Source of the DNA: Apostichopus japonicus
Taxonomy: Eukaryota; Echinodermata; Holothuroidea; Aspidochirotida; Stichopodidae
DNA length: 64,000 nucleotides
Assembly (NCBI RefSeq): GCF_037975245.1
Contig: NC_092572.1
Location: forward strand, 23,480,489 to 23,544,488
Direction: 5' to 3'
In this document: positions 40,056-62,800 of the stretch, one piece after another
Layout: each line of letters opens with the position of its first letter
Position numbering within the stretch: position 1 is the stretch's first letter
Notes under the pieces: generated by a model
Databases searched by the model: none
Told to the model about the DNA's origin: nothing
Seen by the model: the letters and a program-made list of their open reading frames with translations, nothing else
Made by a program: the position numbers and the translations under genes

Positions 40056-41889
40056 TCCACTGGATCTATTTTGAAGAATTAAAAAATGAACCGCAAGAGT
40101 GAACGGAGCTCACGGAGAAGCCAAAAGTCATCGTCTGATGCCTCATCTCAAGAGTCGGAGGTTGATAAAATTCGTAGCCACAGATCGAGGCATCGTCATA
40201 AACACAAGAAGAGTAAAAGGGAGGAGTCGAAGGAAGCCAGCAAATCGAGGAAGGCTAGTAAGAGAAGAGATAGCGGAGGATGGGCTGCAACAAAGCAATC
40301 GAGCGAAAAGCAGAAGAGTAGACGATCGTCTAAGGTTAAAAAGGAAAGCAGCAGCGATGAAGAGACGGAGAGTGCAACCTCCGACGTAGGGGAGAAGGAG
40401 GAACCCATGCTTGTTGCTACGACGACGACGACTCAGAGTCGAGAAGAGGCCGTAAGTGCCAACAGAGACTCGACGGACACACCGTTGAAGAAGTTAGAAG
40501 CCAAAGATTGGAAGGGGAAGCGAGTGCTAGCCAAGACTAGGGACGGCCAGTTCCATCCGGGGGTCATCAAACAGGTCCGCCGGAGTAACGACGTCGGAGT
40601 CGTGTTCGACCACGACTCCCATCTGGAGGTGTACGATAACGTCTTAAATTCAGACGAGGTGAGGATCGTCCTGGACAACGTGCCGTCTGTTAACTGCGTG
40701 GGCGTTGGCAGCAGGGTGTGCGTTCAGAGGGTGCCTGTACAGGGCAAGGCCTACGTGGAGGCTGTGGTGAGGAGTGTATCCGCTAACAACCAGAGTTTAT
40801 CCGTCTGCGTGGTCCCGTCAGACGAGACCGTACAGACCCAACTGTGGAAGGTTCGTCTGTTGCAGCACCCATGGGGAAGCAGGTCACCACCTATCGCCAG
40901 GCAGCTCACGTTTAGCCCTGAGCCCATAGCTGCCAGAGTGACCAAGCAACCAAAGTCAGCAATCAGCCATCAAGTCGTCGGCCATCAAGCCGTAGTAGCA
41001 CAGACTACTGTGCATGCCACTCCAAGTTGGACCGCCTCAGTCACACCTACAGTGCAGTTGGACCACTTTACCGCAGCACTGAAGAATACGTCGGAAGAAG
41101 ATCGTCCTAAGTTATTTGTGTCGACACAATTAACTCATGATAGAATTCCAAGTAACGCTGCAAAGCCGTTGCCCGAAACGTCACCCTCTGTGGGTTTGTT
41201 GCACGAAACTTCACCCTCTGTGGGTATGTTGACCGAAACTTCACCCTCTGCGGGTTTGTTGCCCGAAACTTCACCCTCTGCGGGTGTGTTGCCCGAAAAT
41301 TCACCCTCTGCGGTCAAGCTTCAGGAGGCGGTTCCAGCGGCAGAGCCAGTGGTCAGACCAGTGGTACCTGTACAACAACAACATCACCATCATCAGCAGC
41401 AACAGCATCAGTACTACCACCACCCAACCCAACCGCCGTCCAGAGATAAATCATGGACCGCAGAGAAGAGAGGACAGGATGACGGATCGGACGACGAACT
41501 GAAGAACGAAGACATCCACTTTGACCGTAGTCATCACCTTGCCCTTCAAGGGGGGGTCTCTGGTGGATCCAATTACTCGCCTTATTCAGCTAACAGACGC
41601 AGACATATCAGCAACGCCAGCAACGCGTCCACGCTATCGGACAGATCGCCCTGCGTCACGCCGTCTCCCAAGCACGCCCACTACTCCAAGGGCGACGTCA
41701 TCTGCAACGCCAACGGCGTCCGCAAGAAGTTCAACGGGAAGCAGTGGAGGCGTCTTTGCACCATCGACGGCTGCAACAAGGAGTCCCAGCGTAAAGGGTA
41801 CTGTTCTCGGCATCTGTCCATGCAAAGCAGGGAACATGGTGAAGACGTCGACTGGGACAGCGACTCGAGGTGCTCCAGTGCAAGGACGG
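40056..41889 (+). CDS. CIC: CIC exon 1 (coding from 40086): N1/DUF4819 and Cys3His cluster
   Basis: Acceptor CTCTTACAG ends at 40055, donor GTGAGT at 41890, phase 1. Thirty untranslated bases precede ATG 40086. It encodes 601 residues plus one base, with the N1 region that is specific to long capicua isoforms, [20 protein letters not shown] (zinc-binding pattern), and coding repeats at 41170-41320. Confidence 0.95.
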
Positions 41890-44800: not shown

Positions 44801-47800
44801 CGTTCTCATTCTAAGACTCCGTCTCCTGCGAGGTTCAAACCCGCCACCTTTCAGCCCATCTCCCCGCATCCCGGCTCCAACTTCCACCCGAGTTCCCGAA
44901 GCGGAACCCCCAACCGGCACAGTACGCCCATATCGGGCAGATCCTCCACAGAGATCGGGTCGCCTAGGGTTGCTCCTCACGGATCAAACTTTGTCACGCC
45001 TGGTAGTCCCCACAAGGGGGTCTATCGTAGTGAGAAACAGTTCCGCAGTGATAGCCAAGATTCGGGGATTGGTTCCCTGGTACAGTCACCCCAGTCTGGG
45101 CACGTAGGTGTGTCGCCTTCAAGACAAAAGTATATAGGAGGAGATAAGGGCTCAAATAGATTTCAGTTTCCTCAACCGCCTTCAGACAATAAACTGCGTG
45201 CCGCACTGATGGCTCCTAAACACCTGCCAGCCGAAACCCAAACCAGCCCAACACCGGGATCGAAGCATCCTCCCCCTACCAAGAAAGAACGATTGTCCCA
45301 CAAGGAACCGGTCAAGCAACAGTCCTTACCTAGCAAGGAGCCGGAGAAACCCAGCGTGGTGGAGTCAAACAGTCTCACGCCCCCGACAACGGCACCAGCA
45401 CCAACGATGAATACCGAGAAAGACACCGGAAGTAATGGACAAGCAGGTAGTGTATGTCTCCTAGGTTACCAGGTAGCATCATCTCCTAGGTTACTGGGGA
45501 ATGTTCTTCCTTGGGTAGTGTCCTTCCCTAGAGTAACTGGTACTGTAGTTAATTTCCCTAGGTTAAAATGTAGTGTTCTTCCAAAGGCTTACAGGTAGTG
45601 TCCTTCCCTAGTTTAGTACCATAGGTTAATTGGTAGTGTCCTAACTTGCGTTAAATGGTCATTTAATTCCCTAGTCTAGTGGGTAGTGTCCTTCCATAGG
45701 TTAACTGGTAGTTTATTTCCCTAGGTTAATATGTAGTGTTCTTCCAAAGGCTTACAGGTAGTGTACTTCCCTAGTTTATTACTCTAGGTTAATTGGTAGT
45801 GTCCTAACTTAAGTTAAATGGTCATTTAATTCCCTAGGCTAGTGGTTAGTGTCTTCCATAGGCCAACAGGTATTGTCCTTCCTTAGGTTATCGGGGAATG
45901 TTTTTCCTTAGGGTACCTGACAATGTCTTTGGCTACTGTTACCAGTTAGTTTTATTCAGTAGGTTACCGGGAAGTGTTATTTTCTGTCTCACCACTAACA
46001 GTTGCCATTCCTTGGGTTTAATACTAGTGGCTTAGACAACCTTACCTATTACTGTTGGTTTAGCACAGTAACTGCTAGTATTAGACTCAGACAACATTAC
46101 CTATATCCTGTTGGTTTAACACAGTTACTGCTAGTATTAGACTCAGACAACATTACCTATGACCTGTTGGTTTAGCACAGTGACTGCTAGTATTAGACTC
46201 AGACGACATTACCTATAACTTGTTGGTTTAGCACAGTGACTGCTAGTATTAGACTCAGACAACATTACCTATGACCTGTTGGTTTAGCACAGTGACTGCT
46301 AGTATTAGACTCAGACAACATTACCTATAACTTGTTGGTTTAGCACAGTGTCTGCTAGTATTAGACTCAGACAACAAACTTATGATCTGTTGGTTTAGCA
46401 CAGTGACTGCTAATATTAGACTCAGACAACATTACCTATTATAACCTGTTGGATTAGCACAGTGACTGCTAGTATTAGACTCAGACAACATTACCTATGA
46501 CCTGTTAGTTTAGCACAGTGACTGCTAGTATTAGACGCAGACAACATTACCTATTAACTAATGGTTTAGAACAGTGACTGCTAGTATCAGACAACATTAC
46601 CTATTACCTAATGGTTTAGCACAGTAACTGCTAGTATTAGACTCAGACATTACCTACGACCTGTTGGTTTAGCACAGTGACTGCTAGTATTAGACTCAAA
46701 CAACATTACCTATAACCTGTTGGTTTATCACAGTGACTGCTAGTATTAGACTCAAACAACATTACCTATAACCTGTTGGTTTAGCACAGTGACTGCTAGT
46801 ATTAGACTCAGACAACAAACTTATGATCTGTTGGTTTAGCACAGTGACTGCAGGTATAAGACTCAGACAACATTACCTATGACCTTTGGGTTTATTTTAT
46901 GTATATCAGCATTTTGAAATACTTTCCAAAAAGAGAAAAAAAAAAATTGTGTGTACATTTTGTAGTGAAGAAACCATAATGGCCTAATGAATACAGGATG
47001 CTGTTTCCAAATGTCAACAAAGGCCTCGATGAACAAACAGTTTTACGCAACACATTCATGGCGATGACAAGTAACAAATAACAAACTATACCATTTCGAA
47101 AATGTAGTCTAAAAATCAACTAACAATTGATGACAGAATTTTGGTTATTACTGTGTCGATTACAATCCATTAAAGTCAAAGTCAAAATCTGTTCCAAACT
47201 TTCCCAGAAGATCATATTTTAAAGGCATAAAATGGGTTTTAAGGTTAAATTCACAGCGTAACCAGATGTAAGTCTCACAGTTTCAGTCAACTTTGCCTTC
47301 TATAACTCTTGTTTTCTTGGATGTGATCAAAGCATAACTCATATAAAACTGTGCATACTGTAGCTCATTGCACCATTGGCCAAACTACTTCTGTAATATT
47401 CAGTACTTAAAATTATTCACACAAATAAATGCATTTAAGAGAGAGAGAGAGAGGTGGAGAGAGAAGAGGTTGACATGTCCTCTCCTATCATGGATGATAT
47501 AGTCATCACCCTAGATAACAAAGATCAATTTGTCAAATTATTAGTGGAAACCTTTTACAAAATTTGTCACATGAGAAATGTGGCCACATATTGTACTAGT
47601 GCATTTAATAGTAGTTCTCATTTGAAAGATAGACTGTCACCCTACTGTGATTTTAATATTTATCTGACACTAAGCCTTGGTAAGCCCTTCTTTGCATTTT
47701 CTAGTGAACTACTCCTTAGGTAGAATGACTTGCTGTAGCTATAAAAAAAAAAAAAAAATCACAGCCCTTCTTCTTTGAAATTTTATCTGTGTCACCAATT

Positions 47801-50800
47801 TATTCAAGATTCTCTCAGCTGTTGTACATATATATAAATGCAGAAGATAGATTAACTGTGTATATATTGTGCAAGTGAGCAAAAGTTCAAACTTGCATGC
47901 CTCCTCCTCAACTGGTGTAAGTTACTAAGTATAGCTGCCAACATGTTCATGGTCGTTCCACCGCCTGTACAAACTGTACTAGAGTATACTTGTGTATTGT
48001 GTGTAGTGCACAGACAGCTGTTGTGTACACACACTGGTCTGTACTCTGTATACATTATGTAGTTATATTCACAAGTAACATGTGACTTGTTCATTTTGTA
48101 AGGTATCTGAGGTTATTGAGATAGAGGGGGGGGGGGGGGGTTTGGTTGAATCTCATTCTGTAAATAAAATGTAAAATTAAAATTCATTTTGCACGTCCTA
48201 CTCCTCTTTAGTACAGGTCTCAAGTATTAATGTATTTTTTTTTTTACATTTATACTTTTACATCGCCTTCCCCAACCATGTTCGTGATTGGTCGGAGTGC
48301 ATGTTATGATATTATCTTGTATAGGTTGGTTTGGGTGTATTACCACCCCTGTCCATGTTCCCCATTGGGTTATGGGAAGGGGGGGAGGGGATGTACTAAT
48401 AATTTAATGTTATTTATTGTGTAGATTAGTTTGTGTACATCGCCTTCCCTTGGCCATATTCGTGATTGGTTGGAGTGAAGATGGTTACCTCTATTTCATG
48501 TTACTATATTCTCTCTCTTGTAGATTGGTCCTGTGCGGTTCCTCCCGGCCATGTTCCAGTATTCTTCTGGCATTCTCTGGTGCCAATCTTCAATATCAGC
48601 CATCCAAACAAACCACCAGCCAACCCAACTACTACCACAGAGAGTGAGAAAGGTATGGATCAAGTATTATTGATACCATTGGTTTCACAGAACAGTAGGA
48701 CTAGTTCACTTTACAACAGGGGTCTGTCATTCTCAGCAATGAAATAAATGATGATGATGTCTCCCATGGAATTTCATGCTTAAAGCAGCCATTTTGCATC
48801 CTTTTCTATGGTTTTTCTCAACCTCACTGATTCCAGGATGCCATAACTACATACATAACTAGCTTATCTATTCAAATCTTACTTCAAATGGTGGCATAAA
48901 AGTTGAAAGTCATTGGCCAATACGTAATTCAACACCATGCTTGATTTGTGTAGATCGTCTACTGTATGGCAGTTGTACCAGGGAGCTGTTAAGAGTCGAG
49001 CTCACTGGTTGTACCAAGTTACCAACTAGACATTTTGAATCTATTTTTAGCAATGGCTCATAAGTAAACCTGCATCTCTGATTGGTTGAATTCCAACTAG
49101 TGGGTTGGGGGAACTGTATGCGATTAATATTAAATGTGTAATTTGTCAGAGGACACTTTTCTCATTATCTACAAACATCCTTAATTACTCGCCAATTAAC
49201 GCTTTTGACAGGGAAAAACTTGGCTTATATCTGAGTTTGCTGTTTTGTGATTGGTATATGTAAAAAAAATCTATGGACTTGTCAAAAAAGTGGTAAACGC
49301 TGACAAAACGCAAAATGCTGCTTTAAAGCTGACTTTTTTTCTTTCTTTTTTGTGGTGTAGCAGCAGTCTTGGAATCCCAATCAGAGGAGCCATCAAATCC
49401 TGCATTGCCAAAGAAGACATCTGACAAGTGAGTAAAGATTCTGGTTCTTGACCAGACAACACTAAGGAGAAATACTTGACATGACTAACTTAAGTATATT
49501 GCTATGGTAGGGGGATATCTTTGAGATGTTATGAGTAAGACCAGGTGTAGTTATATAACTATATCTGTGAGATATGACTAAGTAGATATAATAATGAATA
49601 AGATCAGTTGTAGTTATATCACTATATTTGGAGGCTGTCTGTGAGATATGACTAAGTACATATAGTAAATGAATAAGATAAGTTGTAGTATTATCACTAT
49701 ATTAGGAGAATGTTTGTGAGATATGACTTAGTACATATAGTAAATGAATAAGATAAGTTGTAGTATGATCACTATATAAGGAGGATGTCTGTGAGATATG
49801 ACTAAGTACATGTAATAGTGAATAAGATCAGTCGTAGTACTATCACTATATTTGGAGGATATCTTTGAGACATGACTAAACTATATACTTGTTATTAGTA
49901 GCTTTGAGCTCAACTCAGCTGATGTTTGCATAAAATGTTCAGCCGTAGCTTGGAGATGAATCATCGTTAACACTTTTGTAGTTGTTATGCAAGAATTATC
50001 TTAAGGCTTGTTGCCAAGTGAACTCATTCCAGGTTGCTAGGGGGAAAAACTCTTATCACTTTTTGACATTGTTCTTTTTTATCTTTGCTTGTAGTAAATC
50101 TGTAGCCTATCTGCTCAATGAGAGTAGTCCATCCACTGGACCACCAAGCAAGAGGAGATCCCATTCACTCAGCTCTCTCCCGAAGGAAAATTCCCAAGAC
50201 AAAGCGCTGAGAAGTCCAAAGAAGGTATGCCTTGTAAGGTGCACGTTATGTGGAGAGGATTCCATGCTGTCTGTTTATGTATGTATGTGTTTTAGATCCT
50301 CCTGCAAGCAGGAACTCGCGAAGAAGCCTCATTGGCTTATCAAAGTCGCAAGCTGACCGAAGTCAGTCTCTTACATTCATATTTATCGTCCATGATTATG
50401 AATTGTCAACAACTCTGTAACTGGACGACATACATTAATCTGGGAGTGACTCGAACAGGGGACCTTATGATTGAATGGCACCGGCGTTAACCACTGAGCT
50501 AACACTCCAAAGTAAATTAAATGACACTTACACTTGCAACTAGCTACCACTGCTTAGTTGAGGACAATTTTATGCTATTTTTTTGTGATTCGAAAATGAG
50601 AATTTGTTGCATTGTGGTAGGAAAATATATATGCCAGAGCTGTCTCGAAAGAAGATGTTTAAAAGGCAGTAGTGAAACAAGAGATCTGGTTGCTCGGAAC
50701 GAGATGCCGAGAGCGAAAAGGTACATTAACATTGGTGACCTTTGACCTCTTCACAGATAAGAGACAAATATCATGTGGAAAGACAAATGAATGCCTTTAT

Positions 50801-53800
50801 GATCTTTAGTGAAAGGCATTAACATTGGTAACATTTAACCTCTCCACAGATAAGAGACAAAGATCATGTGAGAAGACCTATGAATGCCTTCATGATCTTT
50901 AGTAAAAGGCATCGTTCAAGAGTTCACCAAATGCACCCGAATCAGGACAACAGGACGGTCAGTAAAATCTTGGGGGAGTGGTGGTATGCACTGAAACCAA
51001 ATGAGAAGCAAGAGTACCATGCATTAGCATTCCAGGTATGTAAGATGATAAACCATGGATTCTGAGAAGAAAATAGTAATTTTGTTTAATTTTCTGTAAT
51101 AAAGATTGTCTTTTGGAATTTATCAACTGTAACCTGTTTCGTAGGTGTTCAATTAAATTTGGATGGGGAGGGGTGTGGGAGGGTTGGTTGGGGAGGGAAG
51201 GTAGGGAGGCGGGTCAGGTATGGTCCCTTCTCTGTATTGGTTCTGTGGCTTTTGACAGGCAGCCTCATCTAAGGAATGGTTGTATACGGATTACCGAAAC
51301 CAACACAGGGGTGGAAAGGTCGTTAAGAATACAGGACTCAGACATAAGAGGTCACCGGTCAGAAGTCTTCTCCAGCCAATGCATAAAGGAGAAAATGTTA
51401 TTGGATCCGTTTGACAGACTCAGGCTTCTATTTTTTAATCCCCTTGTACTGCGATTTAATCTAAGCCACTTGTGAATTTCCTCTGACTGAGTTGAATTAC
51501 ATGTGAAGTTAAATGTTTGTTTTCACGGCATGCACATGTGGCTGCGTAAAATTGTGAACTTTCTTGAATGAATACAAATTTGTTGCTAAACTTGTGGTAT
51601 GACTTTGTAATTATCCACACACACACACACCCCAACAGGTGAAAGAGGCACACTACAAGGCACACCCTGACTGGAAGTGGTGCAGCAGGGAACGAAAGAA
51701 GTCTGGTTCATCGAGCACTGCCGGTACCCCACACCCTCCATCGCCTGGTACCCCACACCCTCCGTCGCCTGGTACCCCACACCCTCCATCACCTAGTCGG
51801 CTAGAGGAGGACCCAGAGGCAAAGACAGATGGACCATTACAGTCTGGTGAGATATCACATCTCATAATTTGCTGTCATTTTTTATTTATATCAAGATCTG
51901 TCTTCAGCCTCACAAATTAGTAAAAACTGATGATCTAGTTTTTAAAAAATTTTTTTTTTACTGATATTAATTTGAATTTTATTAAACTACTGAATATGTT
52001 TACCTATCATGGAAGGTCTGTATTTGGTAGTATTAAGTTGACCGTCTTTCTGTCGATTCTTTCGGGAAGTTTATGGCTACTTTGATTGAGTTGTAGAGAC
52101 AGAATCCATAGGCAATGTTTGAGATCATGTGTAAAGACATAAAGCTCTGGATTTACTGTGCCAGAGACAGAACCAGGGCAGTCTTTGTTATCTCGTACAA
52201 AACATAAATCTCCGGTCGTACTGTCCCAGACAGAAAGACATTGAGGCTTAACATTATAACTTAACAGTTAATCTTGTTAGCAATTTTGAGGGTGATAGAG
52301 AGAGACAGAATAAGAACAAATATTTTCATTAAAAGACATAAAGCTCTGGTTTTACTGTGCCAGAGACAGAACGAGGGCAGTCTTTGATGTCTCGTACAAG
52401 ATGTAAATCTCTGGTCGTACTGTCCCAGACAGAAAGACATTGAGGCAGTGCTTAACAGTAAATCTTGTTAGCAATTTAGAGGGTGCTAGAGTGAGACAGA
52501 ATTAGGGCAAAGTCTTTTCTTGAGATTCTTGCTGTACTGTTTCATTAAAGAAGGGGGGTGGGGTGGGGGGGATGGTTTAGTCTTTTTACAAGCCTTATAT
52601 ATCCTATTGAGTATCTCTGGAAGTCATTAGCCATGTCTGTGTAAGGTATCTGTAGCTTATGTCAGTACTGAATCTTTACATTACTTTCAGTTGAAGAAGT
52701 CGAGCAGACCTCAGCATCACCTAGTGTTGCATCTTTCGCAACAAGGATGATGGTAAGTTTGGTGAAGCAATTTCCTTATCCTGCATTTGGTTGTCAATAC
52801 CCTGCATTTGGTTGTCGGTAACCTGCATTTGGTTGTCGGTAACCTGCATTTGGTTGTTGATATCCTACATTTGGTTGTCGATATCCTGCATTTGGTTGTC
52901 GATATCCTGCATTTGGTTGTCGATACCCTGCATTTGGTTGTCGATATCCTGCATTTGGTTGTCGGTAACCTGCATTTGGTTGTCAATACCCTGCATTTGG
53001 TTGTTGATATCCTACATTTGGTTGTCAATACCCTGCATTTGTCGACATCCTGCATTTGGTTGTCGTTAACCTGCATTTGGTTGTCGATATCCTGCATTTG
53101 GTTGTCGATATCCTGCATTTGTCGATACCCTGCATTTGGTTGTCGATATCCTACATTTGTCGATACCCTGCATTTGGTTGTCAACACCCTGCATTTGGTT
53201 GTCAATATCCTGCATTTGGTTGTCGGTAACCTGCATTTGGTTGTCGATATCCTGCATTTGGTTGTCGATATCCTGCATTTGGTTGTCAGTAACCTGCATT
53301 TGGTTGTCGATAACCTGCATTTGGTTGTCGATAACCTGCATTTGGTTGTCGATATCCTGCATTTGGTTGTCGATATCCTGCATTTGGTTGTCAATATCCT
53401 ACATTTGGTGGTCAACATCCTGCATTTGTCGACATCCTGCATTTGGTTGTCGTTAACCTGCATTTGGTTGTCGATATCCTGCATTTGGTTGTCGATATCC
53501 TGCATTTGTCGATACCCTGCATTTGGTTGTCGATATCCTACATTTGTCGATACCCTGCATTTGGTTGTCAACACCCTGCATTTGGTTGTCAATATCCTGC
53601 ATTTGGTTGTCGGTAACCTGCATTTGGTTGTCGATATCCTGCATTTGGTTGTCGATATCCTGCATTTGGTTGTCAGTAACCTGCATTTGGTTGTCGATAA
53701 CCTGCATTTGGTTGTCGATAACCTGCATTTGGTTGTCGATATCCTGCATTTGGTTGTCGATATCCTGCATTTGGTTGTCAATATCCTACATTTGGTGGTC

Positions 53801-56800: not shown

Positions 56801-59800
56801 ATCAACAACAAGCTGACTTCATCTCAGATAACTCTCATCGCCTGTTTTTCATTTTTTTTCAAGCTGTCTTGATCTTGGAGTGTAGTGTGAAACTGGGTGA
56901 TGGCTTACTCTCTCTCTAGACATCGTTTGGATTTTTTTTTCTGATTTTGTCTTTCAGCCGACGATGTCGAAGGTCCAGCCGAGGCCATGAAACCCATCGA
57001 CGAAGAGAGAAAGGATTTGGACCTCAAGTGTACGGAAGACGTCGCCGACAGCGACTCGGAAACCGAGTCCGAAACGGAGACGATCGAAAACAAGGTCTTT
57101 CCCCAGCAACGATTTCAGTCCATCAAACCCCAAGCGGACATAACCTACAGACCGAGGGCCATAAAAGCCCTCCCCGAGACATCCTCCAGTGGCAGAGACT
57201 CGGGCAGTGACACCAGGGAAGAGCATCCGCGTCCCATCAGCTCCTTCAACCCCCAGGGGACCGTCTTCAAGGCCCACTCGCCTCGTAGGAATTACGTCAA
57301 AGCCTTTCACGAGTATCAACCCTGGAGTGATTCTGAAGCTGTCGAGGGTAACCTCTCTCCGAGGAGAACGTCCTTGGATTCTGCCAGTCAAGAAGAACAC
57401 AAACAGTCCAAACCGTCGGTTAAGGATGTTAAGCCGCTAGCGGTCCCCGTAAGTGTCAAGGAGCAACCCCGAGCCAAAGTTGAAGTTTCTTCTGGGGACC
57501 AACTGAGTGTGGGCAAGATCCAGGGAGGGGTACCTGGTAGTAAAGGAACCGTGAGGGGTGTTCAGGACGGTGTAGTTCCTAACCAAGGAATGGTCACCAT
57601 CGTACCGGTCCAGACCCTCCCCATATCCAACCAGCTTCAGTGTATTTCTATACCAGCGCAGGTGAACACCGGCAAGCCAGATCCTACCATACCATCCCAG
57701 CAGCTGACGTTTAAGACCAGCTCCAACCAGGTGACGATCATCGGTAACCAACAGCAGTTTCCTGTCATCCCCTTGGTACCCTCTGCAGCCCCTCCCCCTC
57801 CCCAACCCCATCCTCTGCCTGCCCAACTGTCAAATGGTATCACGTGCAACCCTTCATCTCACAATATCGCCGTACAGCAGTTGAACACTTCAAAAGCTGC
57901 CACCTATTCTCCAGGACAACCAGCCAATGTGGCCGCCTGCAATGTACCTGCCTCAGATGCCGCCCCACAGGTACCGGCCGCCTCGGTGGGGTTGACGATT
58001 CAGCAGGTGCATCAAGCATCTACCAGTTCCCCTCAACTATCTTCAGGGCTTTCTCTACAACAGTCAACGTCCGCTTCGGTCGGTGCTCCGTCCAGTGGCT
58101 TGACCGTACAGCATGTGCCTGCTGCGTACGTTAGCTCGGCCAGCTATCTCTCTACTTCACAGATTCAACCACTGGTCTCTACCGCTAATGGTCCCAACAA
58201 CACCGGTCTGCAGCATGCACCCTCTCGTGTCACTCTTCAGCAGAATCCTGCCTCCGGCACGCTCAGTATGGTTCCGTGCAGTTCGGTTGTAACCATAGCA
58301 ACCAATCAACCTCAGCCTACCAAATTCTACTTCCATGGTGCTCAAAGGTATCTTTTCAGCTGTTTTTTAATTTTTTTTTTTTGTTGTTGGTGGTAGGGGG
58401 AAAGGGTGGGGGAAGGGGGTGGGGCATGTACTTGTAGGGTGTAGAAGTTGCATGGGGAATCATGTTGCTGTTCAGATAAAGATCCAGACATGTATGAATT
58501 ATGAATTTTTTGTCAATAATACAAACAATGAAGGTCTGTCTGTCTGTTCTTCTTCTTCTTCGGTTTTTCTCTATGTCTTTCTTTCCCCTCTGAACGTAAT
58601 TAAAGTGGATTTTTGTTTTTTATTTCTACTTTTATCATTAGTTGATATAACAGCCTTGCTGTTTTTCTAGTGTCCTTCATATGTTAACCTTCCTACTGTA
58701 GTGTTAGTTTTGTAGTAATCTTGTACCAAACATATGAGATATAAATTTGAAATGAAAAATAAAAAATAGGAAACTTGATTGTTAGTCTCACTGTCCCACC
58801 CAGAAGTTCATTTTCAGCAAGTGCTGCTGGAAATTGGCTTCTTCAAGTGCCAGTCTTACTTTGCTATTTATATGAATTTGTCATCATCATGGGCTTTTGT
58901 TATCGCGTAGATAAACGATAATGGTCGGGCTTCACATCTCCTATGACTGGCTATTCGTTCATTATTTTGTGTTCAAAATCTTTTCAGACCGTTACTGATG
59001 CATCAAAGCGCCTCCACACCCATCATAATTCACCCGCCATTTGCACCGTCGAGCACAGGACCAACAATTTCCCACGGTAAGTCAAGAAGTCAAGAAATAT
59101 TCGGTGCAATTATGATTGTTCCTCTGGTAAGAAAGTAAAGAAGAAACGTAAAAAAAAAAAAAAAAAGGGGAAAAATTAAAAGAAAAGGGGGAAAAATGGG
59201 GGGAAGGGTGCTGCAATCTATTCACTTAAATGAAACATGAATGCATTGTGTAAATTAGCCTTATTAAACAGACGACATTGTTAACATAGCTACAGCCTAA
59301 CCCTAAATAGCTGTGTCATTTGATAGATGGATTTAGTGTGCAGAAAAGCTCGCATTTAGAATAATACATGCTCAACTGAGGAGAGCCCAGGCCTAATGTC
59401 CTCAGATCAAGCTTCGCCCAGACAGGATTGGACCAATGTTGGATCCACAAGGAATGTTTTTCTATTTTTCATCAATTTAAAGGATAGACAAGAATGAGGA
59501 TTATGTTTTGCATATGAAAGAGGAACGTATCCTTAGCATGCTGGTGAAATTTGCATTCCGTTTCTTACGCATCGTTTTTGAAACAATGTATGAAAGTTGA
59601 CATTATTATCTACCAACAGTGAACTTGAAGCAAACAGGTGTGATGTCATAATGCATACTGACAGATTTGGTCGATGTTTTCCTTGCAAATTAATTTCTTC
59701 AAAAATTCTGATCCATTAAACATTCATACTACAAGTAATTGGGGTATTTAAGTAGCTTCACTATGGAGAGCCCATGTCTACTGACCTCAGTCCAAGCTTC

Positions 59801-62800
59801 ACAGCCAGGACTGGGCCAAAGGTGGATCCATTAAACATTCATACTACAGTTATTGGGGTATTTTGGTAGCTGCACATCTCCTGAAAGAAAGTTGGAATCC
59901 TGTCCAATCCAAGACCCAAAACAAGGAGGTGGAAATTATAAACAAAAGAGAGACAGAAAAAAAAAAAAAAAAAATCCATTTTGCTGTCAGTTTGCAACTA
60001 TGACATCACACCTGTTTGCTTCAAGTTCACTTATAGGACGTACTGTGACAATTTCACTTATAAATTTTCTTGAAAGTTCCATGTAGGATTTGCTTGTAAA
60101 TTTGATCAGAATACTCAACAGTATGTCCTCCTTTCATCATTCAAGAATAAATTTCTTCTGGATGGTCCTTTAAATAACTGCTGTTGCATTCTTTTGCACA
60201 CCGGATAAGAGATACATGTTTATGTCTCTTATGAAGGCATTGCCCATCTTACGCTAGGGTATTGGATTGTGGTTTGAGCAAGTAAATGATTTTCTGTGGG
60301 TAACACACAACTGTTGTATTAAAAAGAGGACCGATCCATTTGTTTTGGTGCTCGAGTCATTTGCCTGACCGTAAATTGTCATAAGTGCTGCCGACAGAAG
60401 CAGTTGATACTCTCAGTCACAGTTAGGAGTGTTAGCTTGATTATAGAAGAGTCTCTCTTTTGAATTTTGTTGAAATAATAACATTTTTTCTTTTATGAAG
60501 CAGTTTCTTCAAGTCGATGTAATGTTTCCCGTCCTTTGTTCCTGACAGCCACAGCTGGGAGTGCTGGACAGGCTCATGTACTGCTTGCACCCAAAGAGAT
60601 AACCACTACCACCACACAGCAGTCTGCTGCCCCCATGCTGCACCAGCTCCAAGTGGCCCAAGGGACCTCATTTCCATTGTGTGTTCAACAACAGCAGACC
60701 ATTCCCACCGCCTTGGATGTACCGAGGTTGCAATCCCCTATCGGAACTATCATCTCGCCCAAACAGGTTCCGTCTCTGGGGGCGCCGATCAACGTTCAGT
60801 CGGGGCAGACGTCAACCACAACCTTTGGCACAACGATACCCATACAGACTCTTCAGCATAACCCAGTGACCCAGTCTATACCCGTGCACACATTGCAACA
60901 TCATCAGCATCATCAACAGCATCAGCAGCAGCAAGCCATACACATGTCCACCCCGTCGTTACAGGCCCTACAACAGCATCAGCAGCAACAACAACAGACT
61001 CACATGCAAGGAATGACAGCATCTCTGAGTGCGCCCGTCAGCGGTACATCGACGTTGGTAAACCAGTTAACGCAACACTTCACAGGCCAGCAGGCTCCGT
61101 TGCAGGTAGGGGGGACCGGCACCCTTATGGCGACGACAGCCCAACAGCCACCAGGACAGAGTACCTCGTTGCAGGTCGCGACCTCCGGTGCCCTGCTGCA
61201 ACAGACGCAGCCGACCCACATGCAGGTAGGGGCGGGGACCCTGGTGGCATCGTCACAACAGGCAGGGTTAACGCATCAGAACCCTGTACAGATCATGCCT
61301 GCACAGCATGCTCAGGAGGTAGCTACAGGACAGCAGTTACAAGTCATCCATGCACCCCTACAGCAGATGGCATTGCCCAACCAGCCTGTCCAGGTAGCGT
61401 CTCGACCTATGCTCTCTCTGAACCTGCAGAGCCCGTATTCGGAACAAGGACCAACCACTATTCTCATGACCGGCCAGCAGCTTCAAGGGTCACCTGTCAT
61501 GGTCGCCATTCAACCAGCGACTGCAAAGGGGTCTTTACTCGGTTCCTCACCTGTCCAGCTGATTCCATCCTCCCACAGACACAACCCAATGTTCAGTAGT
61601 GCATGTACTGGTGGTACCCACACCACCTCAGTCTATTCCACAAGTAAGTCTATTTATAGTTTAATCTTATTTCAACCACACTAGTATAAGCGATTTCATG
61701 CAGATATCTCTGCTTCTTATTGGGAAAGTAAGTTTAATCATTTCATGCTTTGGTAGGTAACTTAATACTTGGGATTCAGTAAACTTTACAGTTGACGTTA
61801 ACTGTTCATAATACATTACCATATATACCAATTTATGGCAGTCACTTCAAGGGCTAGGTATATCTGCTGTAAAAGGTTTGCATGCCCAAGATTATAAGCA
61901 TTGGTGGGTAGTGTCTTGAAAGTAGTATCGTCTGTTACTCTACGACTCCACATACTCTTTGACAGATCTCTCGTGTCCTCATGTTATTGCAAAGGCAAGC
62001 ATCACTATACATATATCAGTAGCATAAATCATTAGCAAGCAAGCATCACTATACATATATACAAGCATCACCACACATATATCATTAACAAGCATCACTG
62101 TACATATATCACTAGCAAGCATCACTATACATATATCACTACAAGCATCACTATACATATACAAGCATCACTATACATATATCACTACAAGCATCACTAT
62201 ACATATACAAGCATCACTATACATATTTCACTACAAGCATCACTATACATATATACAAGCATCACTATACATATATCACTACAAGCATCACTATACATAC
62301 ATATCACTAGCAAGCATCACTATACATGTACAAGCATCATTATACATATATCACTACAAGCATCACTATACATATACAAGCATCACTATACATATATCAC
62401 TACAAGCATCACTATACATATATCACTAGCAAGCATCACTATACATATATCACTAGCAAGCATCACTATACATATACAAGCATCACTATACATATACAAG
62501 CATCATTATACATATACAAGCATCACTATACATTTGTTACTCTCATTGTCTTGTCTTATCTTTCCTAGCTTCGTCATTTCCGGTGAAATTGGAACATCCG
62601 AGCGGATTAATTCAAGCCAAGCCGCACCCGTCTGTACCGTCTCATCATCAGGTAGCACTAGCCATTCAGCCCAAGCCTGATGTCCAGCTGCGTCCTCATG
62701 CCACGACTACCGTGCACTCGGAGACCCAGATACAGTCTCAGGCTGTAGCAGCTGCTTCACAGTCTGACTGTCACACGCATCCACCACAAGCCACTCTTGC

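Follow-up and report, generated by a model that had tools for sequence, protein, structure and literature searches.

A tandem copy of the splice acceptor and exon start of the capicua HMG-box exon in Apostichopus japonicus

In the sea cucumber Apostichopus japonicus, the exon that encodes most of the HMG box of capicua (CIC) is preceded by a second copy of its own splice acceptor, followed shortly by a stop codon. The question raised by this locus is whether the copy works as a switch for unproductive splicing or is a neutral duplication that has been tolerated. The window analysed was a stretch of 64,000 nucleotides, and all positions refer to it unless a contig is named.

The host gene was identified from its domains. 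The HMG exon matched Pfam HMG_box (E 2.2e-15), and together with the next exon its best two matches were the human CIC HMG boxes 7m5w (3e-47) and 6jrp (7e-46), which bears out the naming of gene and exon in an earlier note on this DNA. A large open frame at 40 kb matched DUF4819 (1.8e-7), which we take to be the domain at the N terminus of long-form CIC. The junctions of the CIC exon model were inferred from frames and splice consensus, and three exons of this model are needed here.

50095-50224, forward strand: inferred preceding CIC exon, with donor AAG/GTATGC, joining in phase 0 to unit A or unit B (see below)
50850-51035, forward strand: CIC HMG-box exon, encoding the first 62 residues of the box, starting and ending in phase 0; bases 1-60 of it form the exon part of unit B
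51639-51846, forward strand: next CIC exon, carrying the end of the HMG box, placed by sequence matches and phase

From the HMG exon onward, six of the seven inferred junctions were in phase. The exception, 58347 to 60549, was out of phase, so that the model probably lacks an exon or splice site at this point. A genome search, which scores only the best candidates, returned nine matches and no second CIC-like locus among them: two were CIC's own exons (98 and 96% identity), and the seven weaker ones (31-45% identity) are presumably other HMG boxes.

Some further features of the gene were recorded. In-frame tandem arrays lie within the CIC coding sequence at 41168-41313 (30-bp unit, ETSPSxGxLP-like) and at 51723-51794 (24-bp unit, PGTPHPPS). 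In the intron inside the HMG box, at 51256-51414, an acceptor-like TTTTGACAG precedes an open frame of 52 codons, which is in phase with the donor of the HMG exon. This frame gave no Pfam match at E 0.01 and matched itself alone in the genome search; it could be an alternative last exon or a product of chance. Further upstream, in the intron before the duplicated units, 50400-50520 resembles by eye the end of an antisense tRNA-derived SINE.

Mitochondrial sequence was observed on two contigs. Contig C35 carries cox1 and, after it, frames that we take from their translations to be nad4L and cox2; TGA serves as a sense codon, and AAA in this cox1 stands where asparagine is usual. Such a gene order and code are typical of echinoderms. 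On contig C29 (G000:C29:14745-31219), cox1 is present as pieces at two sites, in contrast to C35 with its one cox1, and these pieces represent either nuclear mitochondrial DNA or a concatemer.

The duplication at the HMG exon consists of two 93-bp units lying head to tail as in a low-copy tandem repeat, unit A at 50724-50816 and unit B at 50817-50909. They align gap-free with 82/93 identical positions (88%), and Tandem Repeats Finder called the pair as 50724-50912 with a score of 301. The 93-bp duplication of acceptor and exon start claimed in the earlier note is thus present; the span given for it, 50713-50911, began 11 bases too early and ended 1 to 2 bases off. Each unit comprises 33 intron bases ending in CACAG, at 50756 in unit A and 50849 in unit B, and 60 exon bases starting with ATAAGAGAC. 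The CAG claimed for both acceptors is therefore retained, and the roughly 63 copied exon bases of that claim are reached only if the CAT shared by the two units is counted.

50724-50756, forward strand: intron part of unit A, a copied acceptor ending in TCTTCACAG, score 8.06, with a branch-point-like CATTAAC (by eye) at its start
50757-50816, forward strand: exon part of unit A, 20 decayed codons of the HMG-box exon, or 21 with the CAT that follows
50817-50849, forward strand: intron part of unit B, presumably the acceptor to which the HMG exon is spliced, ending in TCTCCACAG, score 7.12
50820-50822, forward strand: TAA in frame at the joint of the duplication, directly behind the copied part, found by reading the frame

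The sequence flanking the joint was still readable. CAT stands just 3' of the right ends of both units, and AAAAGG is found immediately to the left of unit A and again at the end of unit B. When the 199-bp region was used as a query against the genome, the sole match was itself, again in a search that scores only the best candidates. An older third copy upstream of unit A was considered and rejected: local alignment of 50560-50723 with unit B scored 14, a value reached by 83% of 2000 shuffles. The same segment scored 16 against unit A, a value for which the shuffles give no reference.

Units A and B differ at 11 positions, with 4/33 in the intron part and 7/60 in the exon part, an evenness that supports neutral divergence. 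Six of the seven exon-part differences fall in four codons of unit A in which the amino acid is changed (D to Y, R to E, P to Q and K to E). These changes include the RRPM to ERQM noted earlier, which was read correctly together with the TAA that immediately follows. Since the four positions are identical in unit B and human CIC, the changes would probably spoil the HMG box even without the stop. The divergence also bears on whether unit A is a second allele of the HMG exon start that was misjoined during assembly. Short tandem copies are generally known as an assembly risk, but allelism with B is unlikely for a unit that is 12% different and altered at HMG-box positions identical between unit B and human CIC, and we regard such an artefact as very improbable.

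The predicted consequence of splicing to acceptor A follows from the frame. After the exon part of unit A, the first intron bases of unit B read CAT TAA, so that use of acceptor A would add 93 bases to the mRNA and bring in an in-frame TAA after 21 codons, ahead of the HMG box. The preceding exon joins in phase 0, and the earlier proposal that use of unit A would truncate CIC before the HMG box is upheld by both frame and stop. As CATTAA opens both units, the stop has most likely been present since the duplication rather than gained later. The stop also lies upstream of later junctions, as in a poison exon: seven inferred junctions follow, the first at 51035, more than 200 bases on.

Acceptor strength was scored with metazoan consensus frequencies, an approximate model. 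The scores of 8.06 for A and 7.12 for B were the top two of the AGs scored in 50260-51036, and among the 4172 AGs of the window 1.9% scored as high as A and 3.5% as high as B. The model is loose, as seen from the spread of 1.2 to 11.6 among the nine other inferred CIC acceptors. A model trained on those nine local acceptors was rejected as too sparse, one of its own sites scoring -13 when left out; under it, A scored -3.6 and B -4.1, with 35% and 38% of the window AGs as high. By its sequence, acceptor A looks no worse than B, and in the approximate model it is a competent alternative acceptor of the kind a poison exon requires. In experiments on duplicated splice sites, the upstream one can reportedly be favoured.

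Because A and B are near-equal and are the best two of the AGs scored, a poison acceptor is plausible, and a regulated one would take the following form: a splicing factor picks A over B so that a stop precedes the HMG box, and the amount of CIC, which is a transcriptional repressor, is adjusted through decay of the resulting mRNA. The competence of both acceptors in the approximate model speaks for this, as do the in-frame stop and the seven inferred junctions downstream of it, all but one fitting in phase. Nevertheless, we consider it unlikely, as the simulation described below gave no signal of selection in unit A, chance is expected to yield such a duplication in this window, and no paper in the library that was searched joins 'capicua' with 'poison exon'. 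Among the matches listed in further searches, no title concerned the CIC gene; literature mentioning capicua together with alternative splicing, HMG-box and isoform does exist.

Donor scores bear on whether unit A could form an exon of its own. The GT after 50867 (CAT/GTGAGA) scored 7.42 in an approximate donor model, compared with 9.86 for the donor of the HMG exon, and acceptor A together with this site, or with 50827 (TTG/GTAACA), could delimit a short, stop-bearing cassette exon. We think this improbable: the remaining GTs within or just after unit A were weak (1.55, 0.68 and 3.88), and 50867 is internal to the coding exon, so that splicing there would damage the normal mRNA too. For want of a good donor, we rejected the idea that unit A forms a separate exon or a newly gained intron. 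An origin of a new intron would have precedent, since introns are reported to arise by tandem duplication of sequence with splice motifs (PMC2891723), and a nascent mutually exclusive exon could be imagined in the same place. Both are extremely unlikely, as unit A runs into a stop after 21 codons and has no good donor, and the 33 bases from the end of its exon part to acceptor B are below the general minimum for an intron. In the A/B pair we found neither the open frame and own donor in each copy that mark mutually exclusive exons, nor the duplicated donor-acceptor motif restoring the frame that marks intron gain.

For the neutral expectation, 11 random changes were introduced into unit B, with three transition biases and 100,000 runs per bias. 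Survival of the AG was seen in 78% of runs, so that the CAG kept by unit A is no sign of selection. The 20 codons remained free of stops in 82-91% of the simulated copies (86% at kappa 2). Amino-acid changes averaged 5.1-5.4, and four or fewer, four being the number in unit A, occurred in 27-35% of copies (31% in one setting). Copies scoring at least as high as acceptor A made up 9-10%. Neutral copies therefore often offer a competent acceptor, and the presence of acceptor A is no evidence of a switch; that only 9-10% score so high is a weak hint that A is not simply decaying. Constraint beyond the neutral expectation, a further mark of a poison exon, was not detected under any of the three transition biases. 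The switch for unproductive splicing suggested in the earlier note thus found no positive support, as both the retained AG and the amino-acid changes fit the neutral simulation.

The repeat content of the window was also taken into account. Tandem Repeats Finder gave 107 rows, which were merged by hand into 45 arrays covering 24.9% of the window bases. Eleven of the 45 arrays have a period of at least 60, and low-copy examples are 79 bp x2.0, 89 bp x2.4 and 113 bp x2.4. With about a quarter of the window in tandem arrays, an array crossing a splice site is expected. The donors and acceptors of the inferred exon model amount to 19 CIC splice sites, of which one, the acceptor of unit B, lies inside an array, compared with 4.8 expected by random rotation; these 19 inferred sites are not enriched in arrays and, if anything, fall there less often than by chance (P of one or none 0.06). 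The count becomes 2/19 if the donor of exon 2 is at 45594 and not at 45446.

This second donor position was noted in an array of about 25-bp units at 45446-45930. The inferred exon-2 donor CAG/GTAGTG at 45446 recurs identically at 45594 and 45757, with near-copies at 45472 and 45869. Six donor-like sites scored above 3 before the stop of the frame, and only 45594 is in phase with the exon at 50095. From 45446 to 45594 the frame contains no stops, compared with six in each of the other two frames. CIC coding may therefore extend into the exon-2 array with the donor copy at 45594 in use, or else an unseen exon lies in between. If the 45594 reading is true, a donor copy from a tandem array is used in CIC, and the gene deserves a look at the RNA level.

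Taken together, the locus is in our judgement probably a tandem microduplication that is selectively neutral, with tolerance of the upstream acceptor, which is either silent or leaky with nonsense-mediated decay. In the only CIC gene found, the last 33 bases of an intron and the first 60 bases of the exon after it would have been doubled in tandem, probably through slippage during replication or through microhomology-type repair, as the CAT and AAAAGG at the unit borders suggest. Unit B would have kept the coding role since the remainder of the exon follows on directly from it, and unit A, left in the intron, appears to have drifted to its difference of about 12% from B without visible constraint. 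As acceptor A is still readable by sequence, the spliceosome would either pass over it or make low-level, noisy use of it, and any mRNA spliced to it, 93 bases longer and with TAA before the HMG box, should undergo nonsense-mediated decay. The 'silent decoy' that the earlier note gave as its alternative is close to this; the neutral reading allows leaky use with decay as well. Standing against it is the position of A as the upstream of two near-equal acceptors. Strong use of A would hurt CIC dosage, so its survival requires either silencing or a use.

The event belongs to a known type, a tandem duplication carrying a splice motif. Gene structure is known to change through such duplications, with decay acting as a safety net (PMC2891723; PMC2809761). 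As in partial internal duplication and intron gain, a short tandem copy within a gene has doubled a splice motif, and a premature stop with decay would be a possible safety net; unlike those cases, the present unit spans an existing intron-exon boundary and adds an acceptor only, with no new intron. The size range and copy number match some other arrays of the window, whereas the CIC pair differs from other low-copy intronic repeats in including a splice acceptor and conserved coding sequence. The likeness to poison exons and unproductive splicing lies in an alternative acceptor that brings an in-frame stop upstream of further junctions. In contrast to these, unit A is a putative alternative acceptor derived from a partial exon copy, and among the published cases listed most are poison exons, several of them described as conserved or ultraconserved.

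A wider proposal is that a lineage of echinoderms has recruited the copied HMG-exon acceptor as a poison acceptor to set the CIC level post-transcriptionally, with repeat growth, also at the exon-2 donor, repeatedly supplying the raw material for splicing control; we hold this to be slightly less likely even than a regulated acceptor as such. Should acceptor A be in use, it would provide a clear case of an unproductive splice site that arose in a developmental repressor through a single tandem duplication, whose joint can still be read. Should it be unused, the locus would be a natural test of how the spliceosome chooses between near-identical acceptors 93 bases apart.
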